Source of the DNA: a virus
Strand: one strand, 5' to 3'
Virus record (IMG/VR): IMGVR_UViG_3300009128_000114
Coordinates: 1 to 26,734 of that record
DNA length: 26,734 nucleotides
Shown: positions 3,001 through 25,722 of the stretch, in pieces
How positions within the stretch are numbered: the stretch's first letter is position 1
Layout: each line of letters starts with the position of its first letter
Program-made: the position numbers and the translations under genes
Notes under the pieces: generated by a model
What the model was told of the DNA's origin: nothing
The model's database searches: none
Seen by the model: the letters and a program-made list of their open reading frames with translations, nothing else

Positions 3001-5168
3001 TTAATATGAATAAACTTATCTTTCAATACAGTCTTAGTAGTTTGAACAGCATCACTTCTTAAACGGTTGAAATAAACCGAAGCAGTAAATGTAGAAGCAA
3101 GGTTTGCTTGTTGTAAATTAATTTGATGTTGTGAAGAAGTTGATGTAATCGTACCATTAGCACTTGTATCAAAAATATAACCAGCAGGGAAAGTGGTCTT
3201 ATGAGCAAGACCAACAGCACTTCTAGTATATGCAAACGTATCAACAACTTTCAATGTAGTATCATTTGTAACACTTGATACAATTTCAGTTACAGTATTT
3301 GCACCATCAGCAATTGTGATCAAATCTCCTGCTTGATATTGAGTAGTAAATGTAGTACCAGAACCAGTTACAGTGTTACCAGTAAACGCAGATACTTGAC
3401 CAGTATGTGGGTCAGTAGTTACAGCACTTTTAGAAACAACAATAATATTCCTTTCATCGTTATTAGATAATGGAGATCCAGTATCATTATTAACTTCAGT
3501 ACCACCAGAGTGAGCAGTATTTGCAGTTACAGTTGATGTTCCATCAGTAGCAAATGTTACTGTCTTTTCAGTTCTATAAACAAATTGAGTATCAACGTTA
3601 TTAGATGAGTCTTTTAATGTTTTAGTACCTTTTTGTGTGAAAGGAAATACAAGACTATTAAGTCCAGGTTCTTGTAATTTAGCAGAACCGTTTGCTTCAA
3701 GTACAATATCACACATTGAATTTAAAGAACCACCGTTATTCTCGTAAATACCTCTTACGTCTGAGAACGACTTACCTGAATTCATTTGAACATCAAATAG
3801 GTAAATTCTAAATTGACCTGCAGCAGTTCCAGGAGTACCTGAATGATATTGGAATCCACGAATACGAGCAGTACCAATAGAAGAACCACTAGCACCAGTT
3901 GCACCAAAATTCTTTCCAGAAATACCATTTTGTTCTGCGTCATATAAAGCAACTTCTCTTAAACCTTGGAAGTCCCAAGTACCAACAACTTCTTTAGCAT
4001 AAACATAGTTACCAAATGCTTGACCAATTGTACGACCATTCTTAGTGTCCCAATCAGTTGCTTTATCAGCATCTCTGAATACTGAAGACTCAATAGAAAT
4101 TCTGTTACCAGAAACATAACCGATACCTTTTTCTACTTCACAAACAAGTTTGTTTCCATCACCACCATCAGTAGAATCGTAACGACCAAGGTTATTAGTG
4201 CCTTTTAAGTGTTCTCTAATTCTTAGATTAAATGGTTCGATAGCAAAGTTACCACTTGTTTCATAACTTCTTTCGTTAATATAAGAACCTAAATCTGAAT
4301 AAGTTGTATCTGTAAACTTCTGAGCAATTTGTCCATTTTCAATTTCAGCAATTGTGAAGAATGTTGTAGTATTCGCAGCAGTCAAACTTCTTACTGCTAA
4401 AGTAGGAGTCATCTTAAGACGAGTTGCTCCAGGCGCAGCAAAGTTAGTAGAACCAGTCGAATTATCAAGTAATGAAGAATCAGCATTAGAATCTACAATA
4501 GTTTCAGTTGTTTCAAAACCAATTTTCTTACTAGGATTAGTTGAATATTTTTCAACAATAACACTTTGTGGATCTACTCTTACAAAGTTACCTTTATGGT
4601 AAACAATACCATCTGATACTGATGCTTTAAAACCTAAACCAGTTGCACTTGAAGAAATTGTATTACCAGCAACAACGAAATCGTTATTACCTGAATGTCT
4701 TACGATTAATGTTTCGTTATCAGTAAACGTTTTAGTTGTATTATTAGAACCAGAGTTTGTGTAGTTTACAAATAATGATAAGTAGTTTGGTGCTGCTGCT
4801 TCAGAACCCTCTTTAACATCTACTAATTTAGCAGTTATACCTGATGTAGCACCAGTAATAATTGTATTAGATATTTTGCTTCCAGTAAAGAAATCACCCA
4901 ACAACAATACACGGTTGTTAGCATCCTTATCTCTCAACTTAACATATTCAACAGTATCAGTTGAAACACCAACACCACTAATAACTGTTCCATCTACAAC
5001 TACTTCATTAGCAAAACGTTCTACTTGGTTTTGTAGAATAGATTGTAGTTGAGTTAATTCTCTTGCTTGAACAGAATAACCTGGACGGAAAAGAATTCTG
5101 TGAAAATTCTTTGTTTCGTCGAAGTCGTCAAAATAAGGAGATTGGTTTAAGTTTGTTTCAATTGCCAT
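1..5168 (-). CDS. Giant DUF4815-type virion structural protein, 3'-partial
   Basis: One frame stays open from an ATG at 5168 to the left window edge, giving at least 1,722 residues with no stop; the C-terminus is outside. The N-terminus (about residues 10-60: SPYFDDFDETKNFHRILFRP, then GYSVQARELTQLQSILQNQ) matches what I know of DUF4815 proteins of marine T4-like phages, which lie next to gp8 and are probably baseplate-peripheral or fibre-related. Near residues 1160-1190 is a Trp/Thr/Gly-rich low-complexity segment (TDWGNW, then runs of T and Q), followed by YIRSRM and KPNTRVYPYFDD around residue 1250, a pattern I recall from the same family. Composition is rich in Asn, Thr and Ser. An AAAGG ribosome site overlaps the gp8 stop, so it is probably the last gene of the gp25-gp6-gp7-gp8 unit. 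Its exact place in the virion is inference. Confidence 0.8.
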   Translation of the reverse strand, partial: MAIETNLNQSPYFDDFDETKNFHRILFRPGYSVQARELTQLQSILQNQVERFANEVVVDGTVISGVGVSTDTVEYVKLRDKDANNRVLLLGDFFTGSKISNTIITGATSGITAKLVDVKEGSEAAAPNYLSLFVNYTNSGSNNTTKTFTDNETLIVRHSGNNDFVVAGNTISSSATGLGFKASVSDGIVYHKGNFVRVDPQSVIVEKYSTNPSKKIGFETTETIVDSNADSSLLDNSTGSTNFAAPGATRLKMTPTLAVRSLTAANTTTFFTIAEIENGQIAQKFTDTTYSDLGSYINERSYETSGNFAIEPFNLRIREHLKGTNNLGRYDSTDGGDGNKLVCEVEKGIGYVSGNRISIESSVFRDADKATDWDTKNGRTIGQAFGNYVYAKEVVGTWDFQGLREVALYDAEQNGISGKNFGATGASGSSIGTARIRGFQYHSGTPGTAAGQFRIYLFDVQMNSGKSFSDVRGIYENNGGSLNSMCDIVLEANGSAKLQEPGLNSLVFPFTQKGTKTLKDSSNNVDTQFVYRTEKTVTFATDGTSTVTANTAHSGGTEVNNDTGSPLSNNDERNIIVVSKSAVTTDPHTGQVSAFTGNTVTGSGTTFTTQYQAGDLITIADGANTVTEIVSSVTNDTTLKVVDTFAYTRSAVGLAHKTTFPAGYIFDTSANGTITSTSSQHQINLQQANLASTFTASVYFNRLRSDAVQTTKTVLKDKFIHINTGSHSASKNGAWSLGVADAYKLVSVYKGSNTGVSTSDTDVTSHFELDDGQKDAFYDTSFLKQKATSSLDLTNVGLMVKFNYMGRDTSSGIGYLSVDSYSIDDTNTANTTAIVTQEIPLYTSPTTGKVYDLRDSVDFRPIKTNTVTPSATGTVASAPTNPAELTAFSIDSTGAHMPTPDENFQADIQYYLPRKDRVVLTKEGKVEVTKGVPALTPRTPDELAGSMTLSVLNIPVYPSLSPYVAKQYSRRDYQVTMDLENNRRYTMKDLRSVEQRVKNLEYYSSLNALEASAKNKQIFGSTGIDRFKNGFLVDNFDGHNIADTSKVGYRAAIDRNKSELRPTFNRTDVSFSKDLSLSSSNITKTGDLISLSYTNTELHGQPYASKLRNPVQELSFNWKGEVTLNPSADNTGDTTTLPDIQMDFNGMYDAIADIADRTGITGTDWGNWNTTSVSSSTQQTGTWGGTWSGGTTQTTTTQTDQIRNGIQTSVSPSTETFSIGNFVENVAVRDYIRSRMVQFTGTRLKPNTRVYPYFDDEAVSAYCTPANSSFANTASEGSSLTTDASGNVYGMFRIPNDDALKFRVGTRRFELKDISNTTTQADLLSTSAHGDYTSIGLDITQRGSNINMKVPQIADNNVTDNRTLTSVSSRNVTTWRRSPPSSDPLSQTFTMVAGESDGAFITKMDLYFGKKSSTYPITVQIREVENGFPTTTIVPYGSKTLQPSSVTANSTVATNATTFTFDSPVFLKNNTDYAFTIIPGGNSDDYALWVGDLGGKDVDTNELIHKQPASGIMFTSADNKTWSPIQSEDVKYKLYKANFSTSTGTVYVENDDIEYMSSDNFYGTFNHGEKVVAESVLRLQGITGNAAGDYVTVGTVIANTTGTAANGTVRSIVNEYANGTVIVKVDPYNPTKFGTMATGNNSVLILGSNFTNGKGKVDSFTANTNSGFVKFVDSTNGKINLDTTTGTWANGFVRGQVSGAATRVTSVDNVSFNTAVPKIPQI

Positions 5169-12166: not shown

Positions 12167-12463
12167 TCAACCGTTAGCATAAACATTTGGAGAACCTTGA
12201 GTCAAGGATATACCACAACCATATGGGTCTCCGAGTCTTGCTAAAGGTTTTCCGTTTACATATACGTTAGGAGAACCTTTAACGAGTGCTGTTGAGTGTG
12301 TTGGGCAAGTAACTGGAGTATGTGGGTGAGCAGTATTTACATCCCCAACCCTATGTACTGCTATACCATTACAATAAACATCAGATGATCCAGTTGCTGC
12401 AGTTGGAACTACACCACACTCGTGTACTGATATTGTATCTCCAATTCTACTTACTTTAGGCAT
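12167..12463 (-). CDS. PAAR-repeat spike tip protein (gp5.4-like)
   Basis: 98 residues, close to T4 gp5.4 (97). It shows the PAAR pattern: MPKVSRIGDTISVHECG at the start, VYCNGIAVHRVGDVNTAH, then CPTHST, GSPNVYVNGKPLARLGDPYG and a final GSPNVYANG. The repeated G(S)xNVYxNG and RxGD units and the His/Cys residues (H14, C16, further His and Cys in the middle) are those that bind a metal ion in the cone. PAAR proteins cap the trimeric spike and sharpen its tip for piercing the outer membrane. The ATG lies inside the gp5 stop region with an 8-base ATGCCTAA overlap. Confidence 0.9.
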   Translation of the reverse strand: MPKVSRIGDTISVHECGVVPTAATGSSDVYCNGIAVHRVGDVNTAHPHTPVTCPTHSTALVKGSPNVYVNGKPLARLGDPYGCGISLTQGSPNVYANG

Positions 12464-14327
12464 AATTCACATCATATGCTGGTTTATAATTATCAGGCAC
12501 TTTTCTATTCAAACCTAAACTTACCATATCAGCATCAATTGCTTTAACAGTTTTCTCTGATAATTTAACACCCAATCTACAAAGAGTAGGATACATATCA
12601 ACCTCAAAGGTTGTACATCTATTTACTGCAAGATATCCAAGTACTCTTGATAAGAATTCGTCTTCCATTTGAAATGGTTGATAAGCACTTAACATTAAGA
12701 AATCCTCAGCAAGTCTAGATGGATTTTTAATTGAATTCTTATGTTCAGGAGTAATCGTTTTAATTAAAGATTCAACTTCAGAATCTGTTAATAAGTTTAC
12801 ATTTCCCTTTCCCCATTTTGCAACGTGATAATCATGACCACCTAATTCGTGGATAAATGTTTGTAGTAACGAATGTCCGTCTAATTTAACAAACAACATA
12901 ATATCGAATGCTTCATACCATCCACCACCTAATACTTGGTATGATTGTTTTGGTTCCATTTTACCTTTCGGTGCAGTTGGTTTTTCAACACCAGCATATA
13001 ATAATTGCCTAATAGGGAAAACTGGAATCTTAGTATCGATAATATTTTTTAATAGATTATATAATTCTTCACCATCACCTTTTGCACGAATTTCTCTTGC
13101 CATTATTTCAATAGAAGATCTAATTTCTTCTAAAAATTCTTTATCTCCTTTTGTGTATTCTATTATCGTGTGTTTTCTTTTTCCAGTAGGTTCGTTTTCC
13201 TCAATCCTGACCATGTTCATTCTAGAATTTCCAGTTTCAAGATGGAAATCTATATCTCCTAATTGTGGGAACCTCTTATAATACTTAGACCAATAACCCA
13301 TTAAACGAGAACCTCTTGTCCATTTCATTTTAGACCAGATCTCTGTGATAATTTTGGTTATCCATGCAGTTTCATTATCATAGTCCAATTGTGGGCAATT
13401 GGAAATTTCAGTTGCAACTGCAGTTGGGTTTTTATCAGCAACAAATTCTACCGTTCTTGCACTAACGTCTACTGATCCATATTTCGTGTCAGTAGGAATT
13501 GCTCCAACAGTCGGATTAATAGAAGTAGGATTCCAATCAATTCTTGGTGCAATAAATCTCATATTACCACCACTAACTATATCGCAAGTTCCACCAATAT
13601 CTGCTCTATAATCACCAGTCACTTTTAAGTTGACGTTTCCATCAACATATACATTCACATCACCTTTAACACGAACATTATCATCACCAGCAATAACCAC
13701 ATAATTATTACTTACTATATGTTGCGATTTTGTTCCATCAGGATGTATTTCGTAAAACGTTCCGGATCTATGATATTCTCTAATTCTTTCAGCACCCTCA
13801 GTATCATCATATTCTTTGAAATGACCTGACTCAGTTTCCATTACATGATTGTATGGGTACTTTGCGTCATATGGTGTTTGTGGTTCTTTTAATAGTTGGT
13901 CTGGGGCATAGACTCTTGTGTTCTCCCCTCTCGCCAATTTGTTTACATCACTCTCATTAGTATATCTCGGGAATTTTTCGGTAGGATCGTTGAATCCAAA
14001 CGCACTGTTGGACTTCTCAGAAGGCATTCCAGGTATAGTGCCCATAATGGCAGGTTCTTGAGCACGATCTCCATCCATAAAGAATCCGAACACCCAACTA
14101 CCCTCAACCATACCAGTCGGAGATTTACCTACTCCACTTGTAGAAGCAGAATCAATACTATTAATAGGAACTGCCCAAGGAAGATCTTCAGTAGGAATTG
14201 CACTCTTATCGTCAGTGTGCCACCCGAATGCACGAACACGCACACGTCCGAGTTCTATTGGATCGTTTCGGTCTTCAACAACACCAACGAACCATTTAAA
14301 TCCATTTCTTCCTATAAAGTTTCTCAT
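12456..14327 (-). CDS. 5: gp5-like baseplate spike with C-terminal metallopeptidase-like domain
   Basis: 623 residues. Residues 1-105 form the gp5/VgrG OB-fold (FVGVVEDRNDPIELGRVRVR; later EGSWVFGFFMDGDRAQEPAI). Residues 160-205 (ESGHFKEYDDTEGAERIREY) lead into a short beta-helix at 205-265 with repeating V.G/V.V units (VRVKGDVNVYVDGNVNLKVT). I see no lysozyme domain such as T4 gp5 carries between these parts. Residues 315-623 are an added domain: a strand (FDIMLFVKLDG), then a helix with HELGGH at 493-498 and RLAEDF with E541 48 residues after H493. HExxGH plus a downstream Glu is the M49-type gluzincin arrangement. H501 also lies nearby. Peptidase activity is inference; the spike identity is firm from the OB-fold, beta-helix and adjacent PAAR gene. 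Confidence 0.85.
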   Translation of the reverse strand: MRNFIGRNGFKWFVGVVEDRNDPIELGRVRVRAFGWHTDDKSAIPTEDLPWAVPINSIDSASTSGVGKSPTGMVEGSWVFGFFMDGDRAQEPAIMGTIPGMPSEKSNSAFGFNDPTEKFPRYTNESDVNKLARGENTRVYAPDQLLKEPQTPYDAKYPYNHVMETESGHFKEYDDTEGAERIREYHRSGTFYEIHPDGTKSQHIVSNNYVVIAGDDNVRVKGDVNVYVDGNVNLKVTGDYRADIGGTCDIVSGGNMRFIAPRIDWNPTSINPTVGAIPTDTKYGSVDVSARTVEFVADKNPTAVATEISNCPQLDYDNETAWITKIITEIWSKMKWTRGSRLMGYWSKYYKRFPQLGDIDFHLETGNSRMNMVRIEENEPTGKRKHTIIEYTKGDKEFLEEIRSSIEIMAREIRAKGDGEELYNLLKNIIDTKIPVFPIRQLLYAGVEKPTAPKGKMEPKQSYQVLGGGWYEAFDIMLFVKLDGHSLLQTFIHELGGHDYHVAKWGKGNVNLLTDSEVESLIKTITPEHKNSIKNPSRLAEDFLMLSAYQPFQMEDEFLSRVLGYLAVNRCTTFEVDMYPTLCRLGVKLSEKTVKAIDADMVSLGLNRKVPDNYKPAYDVNYA

Positions 14328-18328: not shown

Positions 18329-18916
18329 ATGGCAACTGTATTTGACGATTTATTGGTAAGAGGTGTTCGTCAGGGTCATATCCCTGCAAGGACTAAAGAC
18401 GCACGTGAGTGGTTTAGAAATAAAGCAACCAAAGTTGGTAGAACTCGAGTACAACCTGAGGATATGCTCAGGGAAAATAAAAAGGTTGATAATGTTGAGA
18501 TTGGTCATATGTACCATTTCAAATATGATCCAAAAGGTAAAAAGACTTTACCATATTGGGATACATTTCCATTAATCTTTATGGTTGGTGCAGCAGAAGG
18601 AGGATTCTATGGAATTAATCTTCATTACTTACCACCCAAATTAAGAGCAAAGTTAATGGACGAATTATACAACCTAGCAAGTAATAATAGGTTTGATGAG
18701 AAAACGAAGTTAATGGTATCTTATAAGATACTTAAAAATGCAAGTAAAATGAAATATTTTAAACCTACTTTTAAGCACTACCTAGCAGACCATGTTAAGT
18801 CGAAGTTTATTAAAGTAGATTCAGCAGAGTGGGACATAGCGTTGTTCCTTCCGACTTCTAGATTTAAGTATGCTACAACACAGAAAGTTTATTCAGATAG
18901 TAGGAAACAATTCTAA
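18329..18916 (+). CDS. Conserved T4-like phage protein of unknown function
   Basis: 195 residues. The middle has a striking conserved-looking core: YHFKYDPKGKKTLPYWDTFP, LIFMVGAAEGGFYGINLHYL, PPKLRAKLMDELY (about residues 62-118). I recall this PYxDTFP...GxNLHYLPPKLR pattern from hypothetical or structural proteins of T4-like marine phages. Basic overall, no signal peptide or membrane segment. It lies between gp4 and gp54. T4 places gene 2 (DNA end protector) next to gene 4, so a gp2-like head role is possible, but the length (195 versus 274 for T4 gp2) and my lack of a sequence match leave it unassigned. The stop overlaps the gp54 start (TAATG). Confidence 0.75.
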   Translation: MATVFDDLLVRGVRQGHIPARTKDAREWFRNKATKVGRTRVQPEDMLRENKKVDNVEIGHMYHFKYDPKGKKTLPYWDTFPLIFMVGAAEGGFYGINLHYLPPKLRAKLMDELYNLASNNRFDEKTKLMVSYKILKNASKMKYFKPTFKHYLADHVKSKFIKVDSAEWDIALFLPTSRFKYATTQKVYSDSRKQF

Positions 18917-19926
18917 TGAGTTTTAATGTACAAGATATAGTATCATCTATTAATAAATCGGGAATTGCTCAATCGAGTCATTTTACGGTACAATTAACTG
19001 GACCAAGTATGAGAGGTGCTCAAGAATTAATGACACGTGCCGATTCAGTAAACTTGCCAGGAAGAACAATTACAACAGCAGAACATAAGTTTACGAACTA
19101 TGGTCCAATTAATAAAGTTCCTTATGGTCAAATATATGGCGACTCAACTATTACATTTTTATTGAGTGAAGATTTGAGGGAAAAGGACTTCTTTGAACAT
19201 TGGCAAGAACAAATGATTAACACTGGTGCTTATGAAGAAAACCTAGCATCTGTTAGTCCAGAAAGTAAATGGAACGTTAAGTATTTCCATGACTATATTG
19301 GTACAGTTACTATCAGGCAATATGGTGCTGCTGGAAACTTAAAAACTATTCACAAATTACAAGAAGCATATCCAATATTAATAGGTGATGTTTCAATGGC
19401 ATGGGGAAACAGTGATGCTGCGAAGTTATCAATTACCTTTGCTTATAAGAATTACACATACGTTACTGAAGATAATTCCAACCAACCTGGACTGGGAACT
19501 GGATTCTCGTTCAATTTGGGTAAAGATGGATTAGCAGGTGCGTTAAGAGTTCCAGGATTTGGAAATATATCAAGCATGGAAGGATTAGGAACAGTATTAT
19601 CTAACGACTTCTTAGGAAATGCTATTTCAAAAGGAACTGAATTACTTGGTCAAGGAATTGATGGAGTTAGCGATTTCTTTGGAGCAGAAGCACCAACAAC
19701 TGGTGGTGATGGTAGATCTAAGAAAATTGCTTCAGTAGTAGATCGTAGTGTGAGTAGTGGTGATCATTTAAGGTTGCCAGCATCGGGTAATGCGACCGAA
19801 AACCCTGCAGGTTATACAAACGAAATGGATGCTTACGTTAGAAACAATTCTTTCTCTAATATGAAAGATGTGTATGCAGAAAAGCAAAGAAGATTAGAAA
19901 AAAGGAAAAAAGAATTTTTTAAATAA
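18916..19926 (+). CDS. 54: Baseplate tail-tube initiator gp54-like
   Basis: 336 residues (T4 gp54 has 320). Residues about 15-195 have the tube-protein fold pattern: HFTVQLTG near the start, FLLSEDLREKDFFEHWQEQM (like T4 gp54 FRMDSEACNYRAMQDWVNSV), and YPILIGDVSMAWGNSDAAKL then SITFAYKNY (like T4 gp54 near TFDVTFAYR). In T4 gp54 sits on gp48 and templates the gp19 tube. Residues 200-336 form a Gly-rich, probably flexible tail with a Lys/Arg-rich end (KQRRLEKRKKEFFK). A gp19-type tube protein is an alternative, but length and the neighbours (gp48, gp26) favour gp54. The ribosome site AGGA lies in the previous gene's end. Confidence 0.78.
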   Translation: MSFNVQDIVSSINKSGIAQSSHFTVQLTGPSMRGAQELMTRADSVNLPGRTITTAEHKFTNYGPINKVPYGQIYGDSTITFLLSEDLREKDFFEHWQEQMINTGAYEENLASVSPESKWNVKYFHDYIGTVTIRQYGAAGNLKTIHKLQEAYPILIGDVSMAWGNSDAAKLSITFAYKNYTYVTEDNSNQPGLGTGFSFNLGKDGLAGALRVPGFGNISSMEGLGTVLSNDFLGNAISKGTELLGQGIDGVSDFFGAEAPTTGGDGRSKKIASVVDRSVSSGDHLRLPASGNATENPAGYTNEMDAYVRNNSFSNMKDVYAEKQRRLEKRKKEFFK

Positions 19927-19948: not shown

Positions 19949-20644
19949 ATGGGTTTACCAAGTTTAGCAACACCACAATTTAGTACAAAGATACCATCGA
20001 CTGGTCAAGAAGTAGAATATAGACCGTTCTTGGTTAAAGAAGAAAAGGTTCTTCTTATGGCACTTGAGGGTGGCGACCAGAAAGAAATTTCAAAAGCAAC
20101 ACAAAATATTATTAAGTCTTGTGTTCTTTCTGATATTAATATTGATAAGTTAGCAACATTTGATATTGAATACTTATTTTTGAAACTGAGAGGAAAATCA
20201 GTTGGTGAGTTAGTTGAATTACAACTCGGTCATTCGGATTCTGAATGTGATCATAAGACTGAAATTCAAATCAATCTAGATGAGATAGAAGTTGTTGGTG
20301 ATATCTCTGATGGTAAGATTATGATTGATGATAAGATTGGTGTCAAAATGAGATATCCAGGAATCGATGATATTGCTGGTTTAGAAGAACAAAACACTGA
20401 ATCTATGTTTAGTGTAATAAATAATTGTGTAGAGTATGTGTTTGATGAGGAAAACGTTTATAGTGATTTTACCAAAAAAGAAATTGAAGAATGGACGGGG
20501 AATTTAAGTCAAAATCAATTTGAAAAGTTGACTGATTTTTTCCAATCAATTCCTAAACTATCTCATACAGTTGAATGGACTTGTGAGAAGTGTGGTGAAA
20601 AAGAATCCGTTACACTTGAAGGACTACAAAGTTTTTTTATGTAG
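19949..20644 (+). CDS. 26: Baseplate hub assembly / tail assembly chaperone gp26
   Basis: 231 residues (T4 gp26 has 208). N-terminus: LPSLATPQFSTKIPSTGQEV then EYRPFLVKEEKVLLMALEG (residues 3-41) is the signature of the T4_baseplate (gp26) family. It has C100 and H102 plus C212 and C215 (TCEKCGE), a possible zinc site. A strong ribosome site (AGGAG) precedes the ATG. The last sense codons read AGT TTT TTT ATG then TAG: a T TTT TTT heptamer sits just before the stop and the next frame is open in -1, so a 289-residue fusion with the gp51-like frame is predicted. Gene position before the tape measure is that of lambda G/GT-type tape-measure chaperones. Confidence 0.85.
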   Translation: MGLPSLATPQFSTKIPSTGQEVEYRPFLVKEEKVLLMALEGGDQKEISKATQNIIKSCVLSDINIDKLATFDIEYLFLKLRGKSVGELVELQLGHSDSECDHKTEIQINLDEIEVVGDISDGKIMIDDKIGVKMRYPGIDDIAGLEEQNTESMFSVINNCVEYVFDEENVYSDFTKKEIEEWTGNLSQNQFEKLTDFFQSIPKLSHTVEWTCEKCGEKESVTLEGLQSFFM

Positions 20645-20698
20645 CATTAATGCATGATTCGTTGGCGAATCTATATGAGTTAAATTTCGCATTAATGC
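20632..20698 (+). promoter_or_regulatory. Predicted programmed -1 ribosomal frameshift signal
   Basis: Bases 20632-20638 are T_TTT_TTT in the zero frame of gp26, an ideal X_XXY_YYZ slippery heptamer. After a 5-base spacer, GCATTAATGC at 20644-20653 can pair fully (10 bp) with an identical self-complementary GCATTAATGC at 20689-20698. Inside the loop, GATTCG (20656-20661) pairs with CGAATC (20666-20671) around a TTGG loop. After slipping, the -1 frame reads TAT GTA GCA TTA and continues into the gp51-like frame without a stop. The heptamer, spacing and structure are seen directly; the frameshift itself is inferred. Confidence 0.75.
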
Positions 20699-20817
20699 AA
20701 CACCATAAATACTCGTTGTCTGAACTTGATAATATGATACCTTTTGAAAGGGAGATATACGTCACCTTTTTGAAAAACTTTTTAGAAGAACAAGCAGAGC
20801 AACAGAAGAATGCCTAA
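20650..20817 (+). CDS. gp51-like C-terminal chaperone frame, probably made by -1 frameshift
   Basis: A 55-residue frame beginning MHDSLANLYELNFALMQHHK and continuing YSLSELDNMIPFEREIYVTF then LKNFLEEQAEQQKNA. The short His-rich, then S.xEL..M.PFEREIY pattern followed by a Gln/Glu-rich helix is typical of the C-terminal T part of tail-assembly chaperones. It corresponds in place to T4 gp51, but is much shorter (T4 gp51 has 249). There is no ribosome site before its ATG (the upstream is gp26 coding sequence), while it is exactly in the -1 frame of gp26 after the slippery heptamer, so it is probably translated only as the end of a gp26 fusion. Its stop overlaps the tape-measure start (ATGCCTAA). 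Confidence 0.7.
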   Translation: MHDSLANLYELNFALMQHHKYSLSELDNMIPFEREIYVTFLKNFLEEQAEQQKNA

Positions 20818-22648
20818 TACAAACGAAAAACTTAATCTACCAATTGTAAATGCAATTGAAGACTTAAAAGCATCTAATACTGATAATAGACAACGTCTAC
20901 AAAAAAGTATGCGAGCAGGTATGCTCAATATTAAAAAGTCGGTGGATTCTCTTAATGATAATTTCATCAAGGCATTCGAACTTCAAAAATTAAAAGACCA
21001 ATTTGACCGTGAGAGAGCATTAGAAGAATCACGTAAAGATACTAAAGAAATTCAAACTCAGGCAACTAAAGCAGATAAAAAAGGTGATGGAACAAGTCTT
21101 GTCAAATTAGGTTTATTGTTTGGTGGAATTGCTGCAGCATTGGGTGTTGCGAGTGGTTCGTTAGTTGCTTGGACGACTGGTGTCACAAAGGCAGGTAAAG
21201 CAATCACATCATTTGTAGGTAAACTTGTTGGAATCAGTCAGAGTGGTAAATTTGCAAAGATATCTGCTGGATTAGATAGTGCATTAAAATCAGTAAAAGG
21301 TTGGAATTCTAAAATCCTTGATGTATTAAAAGCAGGTGTTGGTAAATTGACTGGTGCAGTTAATGCAATTAAAAATTCTAAATTTGTTACTACAATCGGT
21401 AATTGGTTCGATGAAATTAAAACTCTTGGTTCTAAAGTAGCATCTAAATTTAAAGCATTTAGTAAAACAAGCGGAACTATCAATAATACTTTCAAAATGA
21501 TTAAAGGTTCGTTAAGTGCGTTCGGTGCAATCTTTAACACCATGAGTAAATTAGCAACTAAAGTATTTTGGCCAATTAGTATTATCCTTGCAAGTTTTAC
21601 AGCAATTAAAGATTCATTCCAACAATTTGCTGATGGTGATATTTTAGGTGGATTGAAGACAGTAGTTACAACTCTTGTTGATGAGTTATTCGCAAAACCT
21701 TTAGATATGGTTAAAAATGCTATTGCTTGGGTTATTGGTAAACTTGGGTTTGATGAAACTTCAGATGCTATTAAATCATTTTCTTTTTCGGATCTATGGA
21801 AAACAATGATGGATGGTTTGTTCAAAGGGATTAGTGCAGCAATTGATTGGGTTATATTATTATTCAAAGATCCACTTGCAGCATTTAAAAACTTATGGGA
21901 AGGAATGTATGGAAAAGAAGGAATTGTTACAAAATATATTTTCAAACCTATTAGCAAGGCAGTTGATTGGGTCGTAGATAAATTCAAAAACCCAGTAGAT
22001 ACTATTAAAGATTTGTGGGATGGAATGTATGGCGAGGGTGGTATAATTGACTGGTTAATCTTTCAACCAATCAGTGATGTTGTTAATTGGGTTAGAGGTC
22101 TATTCGGTTGGGACAAAGACAAAGACGGTAAAGAATTAGCAGAATTTAATTTAAGAGATTTTGTAGTTGGTGTTATTGATGATGTGTGGAAATCTATTAC
22201 TGATATCTTTGATAGTATTAAAAACTTTGATTTTTATTCAATAACCCCTGATTGGTTCCAAGAATGGAAAGGTGTTGGAAAGTATGCAAAAACCGCAGAA
22301 GACCATAAACAAGAGGGATTAGAAATTATAAGAAATGGGCATACACCTAGAACCGATTTAGATAATGAAGCAGAAGCGAATAATAGGTTGTTGGGAACTG
22401 AAGAAATTCGCCAGATGCGTCTTGCAATTGAGTGGTTAAAGAAAAACCCGACTCAGAATGCTCAAGCAATTAATGAGATGAGTAAACTTCTACAATCACA
22501 AGGACATAGTGTTAATGTTGTTGCACCAGTTACTAATACTGATGCAAGTCAAAGGGTTGTGAACCAAAGAAATGTTAGTATTCCTGCTGGTGCTGGAAGA
22601 AATAAAGGTAATCCTACTGTACAATATGAAGCAGTACCTGTTCTCTAA
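20810..22648 (+). CDS. 29: Tail tape-measure protein, gp29-like
   Basis: 612 residues, close to T4 gp29 (590), which sets tail length. The first 95 residues are charged helix; a hydrophobic segment spans about 98-121 (LVKLGLLFGGIAAALGVASG) and another about 248-265 (WPISIILASFTAI), with long Ala/Lys/Ser-rich helices between. Residues 346-385 and 386-425 are a tandem 40-residue repeat (DWVILLFKDP...NLWEGMYG then DWVVDKFKNP...DLWDGMYG), with a third start at 426 (NWVRGLFGW). Membrane-active stretches are usual in tape measures, which leave the tube first at infection. It lies right after the chaperone pair, as expected. At about 1.5 angstrom per residue a tail near 90-100 nm is predicted (inference). 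Confidence 0.78.
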   Translation: MPNTNEKLNLPIVNAIEDLKASNTDNRQRLQKSMRAGMLNIKKSVDSLNDNFIKAFELQKLKDQFDRERALEESRKDTKEIQTQATKADKKGDGTSLVKLGLLFGGIAAALGVASGSLVAWTTGVTKAGKAITSFVGKLVGISQSGKFAKISAGLDSALKSVKGWNSKILDVLKAGVGKLTGAVNAIKNSKFVTTIGNWFDEIKTLGSKVASKFKAFSKTSGTINNTFKMIKGSLSAFGAIFNTMSKLATKVFWPISIILASFTAIKDSFQQFADGDILGGLKTVVTTLVDELFAKPLDMVKNAIAWVIGKLGFDETSDAIKSFSFSDLWKTMMDGLFKGISAAIDWVILLFKDPLAAFKNLWEGMYGKEGIVTKYIFKPISKAVDWVVDKFKNPVDTIKDLWDGMYGEGGIIDWLIFQPISDVVNWVRGLFGWDKDKDGKELAEFNLRDFVVGVIDDVWKSITDIFDSIKNFDFYSITPDWFQEWKGVGKYAKTAEDHKQEGLEIIRNGHTPRTDLDNEAEANNRLLGTEEIRQMRLAIEWLKKNPTQNAQAINEMSKLLQSQGHSVNVVAPVTNTDASQRVVNQRNVSIPAGAGRNKGNPTVQYEAVPVL

Positions 22649-22920
22649 CCAATAACTGCAATAATATTTCCTTCACGCATAACCATATATTCAGATTCCA
22701 TTTCTGTTGCTTGTGCTAATTCAAACATAACAACATCACCTGCTTTAACAGTCATCTCAATCCAAGTGCCAGTGTCATACTTACCTGGACCAACAGCAAC
22801 TACCATACCTCTATTTGATTTATCAACTGCTGTTTGAGTTAAGATTAACCCTGACTCAGTTGTCTGTTCTGATTCTTCTACTTTTACGATAACTCTATCG
22901 TGTAATGGTTTCAAATTCAT
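22645..22920 (-). CDS. groES: GroES-type co-chaperonin
   Basis: 91 residues, near the length of bacterial GroES (97). MNLKPLHDRVIVKVEE at the start, the mobile loop TTESGLILTQTA (residues 20-31, like GGIVLTGSA in GroES), VAVGPGKYDTG (42-52), VKAGDVVMF (60-68) and EYMVMREGNIIAVIG at the end are all typical. T4 uses gp31, a GroES-like protein, to fold its capsid protein with host GroEL; this one probably does the same job with its own GroES. No GroEL is in the window. A good ribosome site (AAGGAG) precedes it. It overlaps the tape-measure gene tail to tail by 4 bases, and a terminator separates it from gp32 upstream, so its own promoter must lie close by or readthrough occurs. Confidence 0.93.
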   Translation of the reverse strand: MNLKPLHDRVIVKVEESEQTTESGLILTQTAVDKSNRGMVVAVGPGKYDTGTWIEMTVKAGDVVMFELAQATEMESEYMVMREGNIIAVIG

Positions 22921-24890: not shown

Positions 24891-25490
24891 ATGTCTTTAA
24901 TCAAACTCGACACCTCTAAACCAGAGAATAAATTTCTTCAACCCTTTATAGAAAATTCTGAGAAAATCTTAAAGGAATATGAAGATAATAAGTCTAACCT
25001 TACCATATACGAATCGGGTTATTGTATTGGATGGTGGTTAGTTCTTCCGTACAGACAAGGCGAAGTTGAAGAATCAAAATATTTCCCTACACTCAAATCA
25101 ATCATTGACGATTTACCTGAAGATATAACACCAGTCAATTTCTATATATCTGATGTTATTCCTAATCTCCCACAAGCACCCCATAACGAAGACCTACCGA
25201 AAGGTATTCAGAGATATCACATCCCATTAAAACATAATCCTAATGCAAGATTAAATGTATTGAAGGATGATTGTTGGTTTCAATATCAATGGGAAGAGAA
25301 GAGCGTATTCCAGTTTTTAGATTTTGAGAATATACATTATATTTCTTCAGACGGTGGTGGAGAAAATCGAATAGTTATTATGCTTGATGTGTTTAAAGGT
25401 GATGTTACAGAACAACAATTAGCAGATGCTAAACAATGGTATGATAACTGGGAATCTGTTGGTAATTTTCATACTGTTGATGTAAAATGA
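24891..25490 (+). CDS. Aspartyl/asparaginyl beta-hydroxylase-like (AspH) 2OG-Fe oxygenase
   Basis: 199 residues. The central part lines up by eye with human AspH: APHNEDLPKGIQRYHIPLKH (97-115) with the AspH segment HTGPTNCRLRMHLGL, and FLDFENIHYISSDGGGENRI then VIMLDV (142-166) with FDDSFEHEVWQDASSFRLIF then IVDV. H98 and H149 would be the iron ligands, with R160 binding 2-oxoglutarate; E100 stands near the place usually held by a carboxylate or glycine. R108 and H110 are also family-typical. Such enzymes hydroxylate protein Asp/Asn or other small substrates; here the target is unknown. It is a single gene behind a late promoter, so a late role (virion or host protein change) is inferred. No ribosome site is seen. 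Confidence 0.72.
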   Translation: MSLIKLDTSKPENKFLQPFIENSEKILKEYEDNKSNLTIYESGYCIGWWLVLPYRQGEVEESKYFPTLKSIIDDLPEDITPVNFYISDVIPNLPQAPHNEDLPKGIQRYHIPLKHNPNARLNVLKDDCWFQYQWEEKSVFQFLDFENIHYISSDGGGENRIVIMLDVFKGDVTEQQLADAKQWYDNWESVGNFHTVDVK

Positions 25491-25492
25491 AT

Positions 25493-25569
25493 TGGTTCCC
25501 CAGAATGGAGTCGAACCATTAGTCTATTGCTTAGAAGGCAATTGCATTATCCTATTATGCTACTGAGGA
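25493..25569 (-). tRNA. tRNA-Arg(UCU)
   Basis: 77 bases with encoded CCA. Acceptor TCCTCAG pairs with CTGGGGA (one T-G pair), D-stem GCAT/ATGC, anticodon stem ATTGC/GCAAT with loop CTTCTAA (anticodon TCT), T-arm AATGG-TTCGACT-CCATT, discriminator A then CCA. Decodes AGA/AGG Arg codons, expected to be frequent in a low-GC phage. The 3' end is 2 bases from the end of the AspH-like gene on the other strand. Confidence 0.93.
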
Positions 25570-25571
25570 AT

Positions 25572-25646
25572 TGGCATTCGGTAGGGGAATCGAACCCCTC
25601 TTGCCAGGATGAAAACCTGGAGTCCTAACCGATAGACGAACCGAAC
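25572..25646 (-). tRNA. tRNA-Glu(UUC)
   Basis: 75 bases with encoded CCA. Acceptor GTTCGGT pairs with ACCGAAT (first pair G-T), D-arm with GTC...GGAC, anticodon stem CCAGG/CCTGG with loop TTTTCAT (anticodon TTC), T-arm AGGGG-TTCGATT-CCCCT, discriminator G then CCA. Overall close to bacterial tRNA-Glu. Only 2 bases separate it from each neighbouring tRNA. Confidence 0.95.
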
Positions 25647-25648
25647 AA

Positions 25649-25722
25649 TGGAGCGGATAGTCGGAATCGAACCGACCTTAATGGGTTGGAAACCCAGTGT
25701 ATTACCGATATACGATACCCGC
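25649..25722 (-). tRNA. tRNA-Gly(UCC)
   Basis: 74 bases with encoded CCA. Acceptor GCGGGTA pairs with TATCCGC (one G-T), anticodon stem CTGGG/CCCAT (outer pair C-T mismatched) with loop TTTCCAA (anticodon TCC), T-arm GTCGG-TTCGATT-CCGAC, discriminator T then CCA. First of the three-gene cluster, a few bases after the predicted start site of its promoter. Confidence 0.93.

Follow-up and report, generated by a model that had tools for sequence, protein, structure and literature searches.

In phage lambda, the tail tube, tail assembly chaperone and tape measure genes lie in that order, and a -1 frameshift at the slip site G_GGA_AAG, near the end of the short chaperone ORF, produces gpGT, in which gpG is prolonged by a C-terminal extension that has no start of its own. 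Frameshifting is reportedly conserved in several groups of T4-like phages as well, T4 itself being said to use genes 26 and 51. The locus described here shares with lambda the gene order, the place of the shift near the end of the short ORF and, in many relatives, an extension without its own start; it differs in its slip site (T_TTT_TTY) and in an upstream Shine-Dalgarno-like (SD-like) element, and the lambda proteins have no detectable sequence relation to gp26 or gp51. The dnaX gene of Escherichia coli combines an upstream SD-like element, a heptamer of the form X_XXY_YYZ and a downstream stem-loop (PMC5009743), all of which have predicted counterparts here, but the dnaX heptamer is A_AAA_AAG and its slipped product is short, whereas the slipped product here would be the long one. 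In the Vandenendeviridae and Andersonviridae, a -1 frameshift at the T-rich site GTTTTT likewise precedes the tape measure gene (phage Adele; PMC12846349), although these are other phage families and the T motif is shorter. The tail assembly chaperone genes of T4-like phages have themselves been identified (Vladimirov, Gautam and Davidson, 2022, Virology 566:9-15); in the passages of later papers that refer to it, this work is cited for T4-like phages with separate short and long genes (PRFect, PMC10885494) and credited with polyT slip sites in T4-like TAC-N genes (the Adele paper, PMC12846349). As far as those passages go, it concerns the same gene pair, T4-like gp26/gp51, and the same assignment of short and long tail assembly chaperones. 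A preliminary description of the present sequence had taken the device to be undescribed for T4-like gp26/gp51, a claim that these publications overturn. The frameshift reading is correct but largely known in T4-like phages; what may be new is the SD-like element upstream and the replacement of one downstream stem by another, both recognized computationally.

The DNA analysed here (the window), a viral contig 26,734 bases long, is part of the genome of a marine T4-like phage. A tail tube gene (18916..19926, plus strand; phrog_45, E 1.5e-29) is followed on the same strand by a gp26 homologue of 231 codons and a TAG stop (19949..20644), which matches PF12322 (T4_baseplate) at E 8e-65 and phrog_150 at E 7e-70 and would be the short tail assembly chaperone (TAC-N). 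Beyond it lies a gene of 612 aa (20810..22648, plus strand), assigned as the tape measure by position and size only and without a family match in Pfam or PHROG searches; in phage HTVC008M, gp51 is followed by one short ORF and then by a gene annotated as a putative tail tape measure. With that assignment, the order is tail tube, chaperone, tape measure, and a short ORF lies between the tail tube and putative tape measure genes, as in the lambda G/GT type. The gp26 gene ends in AGT TTT TTT ATG TAG, with the stop at 20642-20644 and the slippery heptamer T_TTT_TTT, which is kept in relatives, at 20632..20638 of the plus strand (zero frame AG[T TTT TTT]). The preliminary description had placed this heptamer correctly in the gp26 zero frame near the TAG, but two codons before it, where a single codon, ATG, intervenes. 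In the -1 frame, a gp51-like extension (TAC-C; 20638..20817, plus strand) would add 59 residues to residues 1-230 of gp26; as described earlier, the frame is open to 20817, where TAA ends it, and the product lengths of 231 residues for gp26 and 289 (230 + 59) for the fusion were confirmed. Read from the ATG at 20650, the extension matches phrog_634 (E 4e-24) and also positions 239-277 of phrog_150, and both parts belong to the T4 gp26/gp51 family, gp26 by PF12322 and the extension by phrog_634. The 612-aa gene begins before the -1 frame has closed, the two overlapping at its ATG (ATGCCTAA). The lack of a ribosome site before the ATG at 20650 was also borne out, no SD-like sequence being found there (AAGTTTTTTTATGTAGCATTAATG). 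The window contains 13 copies of the motif TTTTTTY where about 41 would be expected. A second in-register T_TTT_TTC occurs within gp26 (20536-20542, GAT TTT TTC CAA), where slippage would soon reach a stop; the heptamer by itself therefore proves nothing.

Our working hypothesis, which from the sequence comparisons below we consider very probable, is that -1 slippage at T_TTT_TTT yields a short tail chaperone of 231 aa and a long one of 289 aa from gp26. Most ribosomes would read gp26 to the TAG and release the short form (TAC-N, like lambda gpG). A minority would pause, GAAGGA pairing with the anti-SD of the ribosome while the downstream stem strains the mRNA; the two Phe tRNAs on TTT TTT would then slip back one base on T_TTT_TTT, and the slipped ribosomes, bypassing the stop in the -1 frame, would add 59 residues to give the long form (TAC-NC, like gpGT). 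Acting jointly, the two forms would cover the tape measure protein and recruit tail tube subunits. It is the occurrence of slippage, its efficiency and the roles of both products that we infer here; U_UUU_UUU is known to be less shift-prone than A_AAA_AAG in E. coli (PMC5009743).

Computation shows the identity and order of the genes, how their frames relate, that the heptamer is conserved and, for the family as a whole, selection at synonymous sites of the upstream element and of the structure downstream. IMG/VR was scanned twice with peptide patterns from gp26 and gp51 that did not contain the slip site; including the window, this gave 160 usable loci, among which some contigs occur twice. 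A second set of 83 further loci came from a more distant scan based on alignment, together with two small scans that started from a protein of Rhizobium phage I34 (one locus) and a KVP40-like protein (two loci). The total of 243 loci represents about 200 distinct junctions (201 in the start-codon count), relatives that are not independent, so that the counts are not to be read as probabilities. The gp51 sequence lies in the -1 frame in 160 of 160 pattern-found and 83 of 83 distant loci. All 124 distinct junctions of the first set have an in-register T_TTT_TT[C/T/A] a few codons before the gp26 stop (77 TTTTTTC, 45 TTTTTTT and 2 TTTTTTA), and an in-register T_TTT_TTN is present in 82 of the 83 loci of the second. 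The sole exception (L185, about 2190-2210) reads TCG TTT TTT TAA, with seven T's one base out of register and an intact extension. A locus in which the heptamer is gone and a ribosome site precedes the second ATG, named in the preliminary description as the case that would contradict it, was sought in the 243 loci and none was found. Among isolates, the in-register T_TTT_TTN and the -1 extension are present in twelve from outside the Tevenvirinae and Ackermannviridae, namely P-SSM2, S-PM2, ACG-2014d, HTVC008M, phi-Grn1 (KVP40-like), Aeh1, Aeromonas phage 65, phiM7, Milchi and the Rhizobium phages I34, AF3 and IC12.

Not mentioned in the preliminary description is an SD-like element, GAAGGA (20618..20623, plus strand), 8 nt before the slip site, which we propose as a stimulator of slippage and which pairs with the anti-SD at -5.4 kcal/mol. 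Elements of this type stimulate -1 slippage in dnaX and in many insertion sequences (PMC5009743). Across relatives, anti-SD pairing peaks 8-15 nt before the heptamer, where the best-placed 8-mer averages about -6.3 kcal/mol in the first set and about -6.9 kcal/mol in the second, most neighbouring positions being near 0; like dnaX, the junction has its SD-like element upstream at a fixed distance. The pairing exceeds that of codon-preserving randomizations in both sets (p 1e-6 and 1e-7), while control offsets show no difference or a slight deficit. In the Glu codon of a conserved Glu-Gly pair, GAG outnumbers GAA 66 to 18 and 48 to 22 in the two sets, against 681 to 2008 and 442 to 1431 for Glu codons elsewhere, where GAA predominates. 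Across the family as a whole, two proposed stimulators show selection at synonymous sites, the upstream SD-like element and the downstream RNA structure. The literature searched, with the 2022 Virology paper standing outside it, yielded no report of an SD-like element at T4-like chaperone genes. The element offers a simple hypothesis for how the ratio of short to long chaperone may be set in abundant ocean viruses.

Downstream of the slip site, the elements of the two-level stem put forward in the preliminary description are all present in the window. The arms of the predicted outer stem are two copies of GCATTAATGC (20644..20653 and 20689..20698, plus strand), the first reached after a 5-base spacer as originally stated, and the predicted minimum free energy (MFE) structure places an inner hairpin between them (20656..20671, plus strand; GATTCG at 20656-20661 and CGAATC at 20666-20671). 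GCATTAATGC is absent from the rest of the window (0.02 expected). The stem has an MFE of -20.4 kcal/mol and a z of -2.7 against dinucleotide shuffles; against a null that keeps the protein and codons, its z is -1.26 (p 0.13), which is not exceptional in this genome. Its conservation beyond a small clade was not upheld: the outer stem is kept only in the clade of the window (L161, L001 and L008) and the inner hairpin also in L001 and L008. The paired stem changes that were to be looked for found no support for this stem across 15 relatives, and as a structure conserved beyond the clade of the window it was rejected, with 70% of cells paired and a covariation score reached by 65 of 500 shuffles. 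A different hairpin in the same alignment begins 9 nt beyond the slip site; three of its pairs are changed on both sides and, in sister lineages, its covariation score and percentage paired lie above those of all 500 shuffles. It is partly lost in the clade of the window. A third hairpin, in a cyanophage-like clade, is 96% paired with covariation no better than shuffles.

When folding was compared with a null that keeps the encoded protein and codon usage, the 72 nt after the heptamer had a mean z of -1.11 in 54 dereplicated loci (p 1e-5), and the next 72 nt -0.04; for 67 loci of the second set the values were -1.51 (p 4e-10) and -0.49. Some upstream control windows are mildly structured (z -0.2 to -0.6), and the downstream excess over background is therefore smaller than the raw value. 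About one-third of sampled lineages have no predicted excess of downstream structure. From these predictions, downstream structure of some kind is favoured, and the stem concerned differs between lineages.

Other readings of the junction may be weighed against ribosomal slippage. In most database records gp51 stands as a gene of its own, and in the window it might be made as a small protein from the ATG at 20650, which begins 5 bases beyond the TAG, perhaps by translational coupling in which the SD-like element holds stopped ribosomes that restart nearby; SD sequences a little upstream of a gene end could keep 30S subunits in place for such a restart (PMC5009743). However, the first 12 codons of the extension, which is at least 50 codons long in 200 of the 201 distinct junctions, contain no ATG in 118 of them and none of ATG, GTG or TTG in 77. 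GAAGGA stands 26 nt before the window ATG, too far for normal initiation, and no start codon lies at normal SD spacing from it, that place falling inside the T run. T4 gp51, moreover, carries a gp26-like domain and the extension in one chain, and restart leaves unexplained why T_TTT_TTN is invariant at the junction and variable at internal Phe-Phe pairs. A separately translated gp51 is, in our estimation, quite improbable. Transcriptional rather than ribosomal slippage could also make the fusion, given the seven consecutive T's of the window, and it is possibly for this cause that UUUUUUU is under-represented in genes (PMC4066793); yet 142 of 206 heptamers are TTTTTTC, with six T's, judged too short for efficient polymerase slippage, and the fixed codon register with the selected SD-like element and downstream structure are features of ribosomal slippage. 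We regard polymerase slippage as highly improbable.

Lastly, slippage might play no part, the T run being a by-product of AT-rich codon usage together with a conserved Ser/Asp-Phe-Phe peptide. Phe-Phe near the gp26 C terminus is indeed conserved as protein, T4 included, and the genes are AT-rich. In the first set, however, T is without exception the last base of the codon preceding Phe-Phe, although seven codons are used there (56% T elsewhere), and the first Phe codon at the slip site is always TTT (77% elsewhere). At other Phe-Phe pairs within 60 codons before the slip site in the same genes, the heptamer is formed in 8 of 71 cases, which disfavours a simple amino-acid or codon-bias explanation, and T4 and EnC07, whose gp51 is a separate gene, encode their Phe-Phe as TTC TTT and TTC TTC. 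We give the by-product reading next to no credence. The -1 frameshift from gp26 to gp26-gp51 is strongly backed by the conserved frame, the heptamer and the missing start codons; as in the lambda G/GT type, many junctions combine a -1 extension lacking its own start with a conserved in-register slippery sequence. We further lean, on sequence comparison, towards a dnaX-like three-part signal (SD-like element, U_UUU_UUY and stem-loop) across most non-Tevenvirinae T4-like phages, in which the slip site and SD-like element would be fixed and the stem repeatedly replaced by unrelated hairpins, T4 having duplicated genes. If this three-part reading is true, the upstream element and the stem turnover are new, though the frameshift is known.

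T4 and the other Tevenvirinae would make both products as well, one PF12322 protein lacking the C-terminal extension and one carrying it, but from two divergent genes, and T4 gp26 ends without a slip site (TTC TTT, in GLKEFF). Both T4 proteins match the PF12322 profile from end to end (E 9e-64 for gp26 and 4e-52 for gp51) and each other by plain BLAST (E 2e-6); gp51, but not gp26, spans the extension, covering positions 13-280 of 282 in phrog_150 and matching an extension profile built without T4 at E 3e-5. The earlier statement that T4 has two separate genes stands, with the correction that the second does not encode a free gp51 tail: T4 gp51 is a gp26-like domain plus the extension, so that in T4 the short form and the long form each have a gene. 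Sullivan et al. (2010; PMC3037559) described a cyanophage gp51 of about 20% of the normal length, in which the first 200 residues are missing, and reported Aeh1 as the only phage without gp51. A frameshift would supply the missing residues from gp26 and so account for this published puzzle. In Aeromonas phage Aeh1 (L167), an unannotated -1 extension follows T_TTT_TTC (4230-4410, E 1e-9). No joined gp26-gp51 gene was annotated in the regions examined, and in ACG-2014d and Aeh1 the extension is wholly unannotated. Marine T4-like gp51, listed as a tiny gene or missed, is probably the tail of a gp26 fusion, which would correct a common annotation problem.

A chaperone identity agrees with the order of the genes and with PMC3004832, where T4 gp26 and gp51 are listed as hub assembly chaperones. 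An AlphaFold model of the window gp26 (pLDDT 93.5) has an N-terminal domain (residues 1-94) that, among solved structures, best matches 3fgx (Z 8.0) and then 2ob9, a tail assembly chaperone of HK97 (Z 7.3), the next chain being at 4.5, although Z values near 8 can be fortuitous. Foldseek alone found no significant match for this model, and a gp26 profile found none among the sequences of solved structures (best E 0.1). The predicted structure supports, but does not prove, that gp26 is a tail assembly chaperone.

Some relatives depart from this design. In the Ackermannviridae CBA120, Phi_10, phi1_175010 and 2050H1 (L169, L257, L258 and L259), the match of the -1 extension is weaker and mostly unannotated, and the junction has RTTTTCAT before the stop and no canonical heptamer; some relatives must therefore express the extension otherwise. 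In Vibrio phage K447 (L173, 4080-4095), gp26 ends in AAG TAA TGG, with an ATG overlapping the stop in the -1 frame, and stop-restart coupling rather than frameshifting is possible there; the extension match in K447 is not significant (E 0.6).

Elsewhere in the window, an Rfam search returned three tRNAs and nothing else; these form a cluster on the minus strand (25493-25722) for Arg (TCT), Glu (TTC) and Gly (TCC). Also on the minus strand are a gp5-like spike protein with an OB domain (12456-14327; PF06714), in which HELGGH, resembling the zinc metallopeptidase motif HExxH, lies in a C-terminal part without a Pfam match, and a phage-encoded GroES-like co-chaperonin (22645-22920; PF00166, E 1e-25) that adjoins gp32. 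A putative aspartyl/asparaginyl beta-hydroxylase is encoded at 24891-25490 (PF05118, E 3.5e-7).
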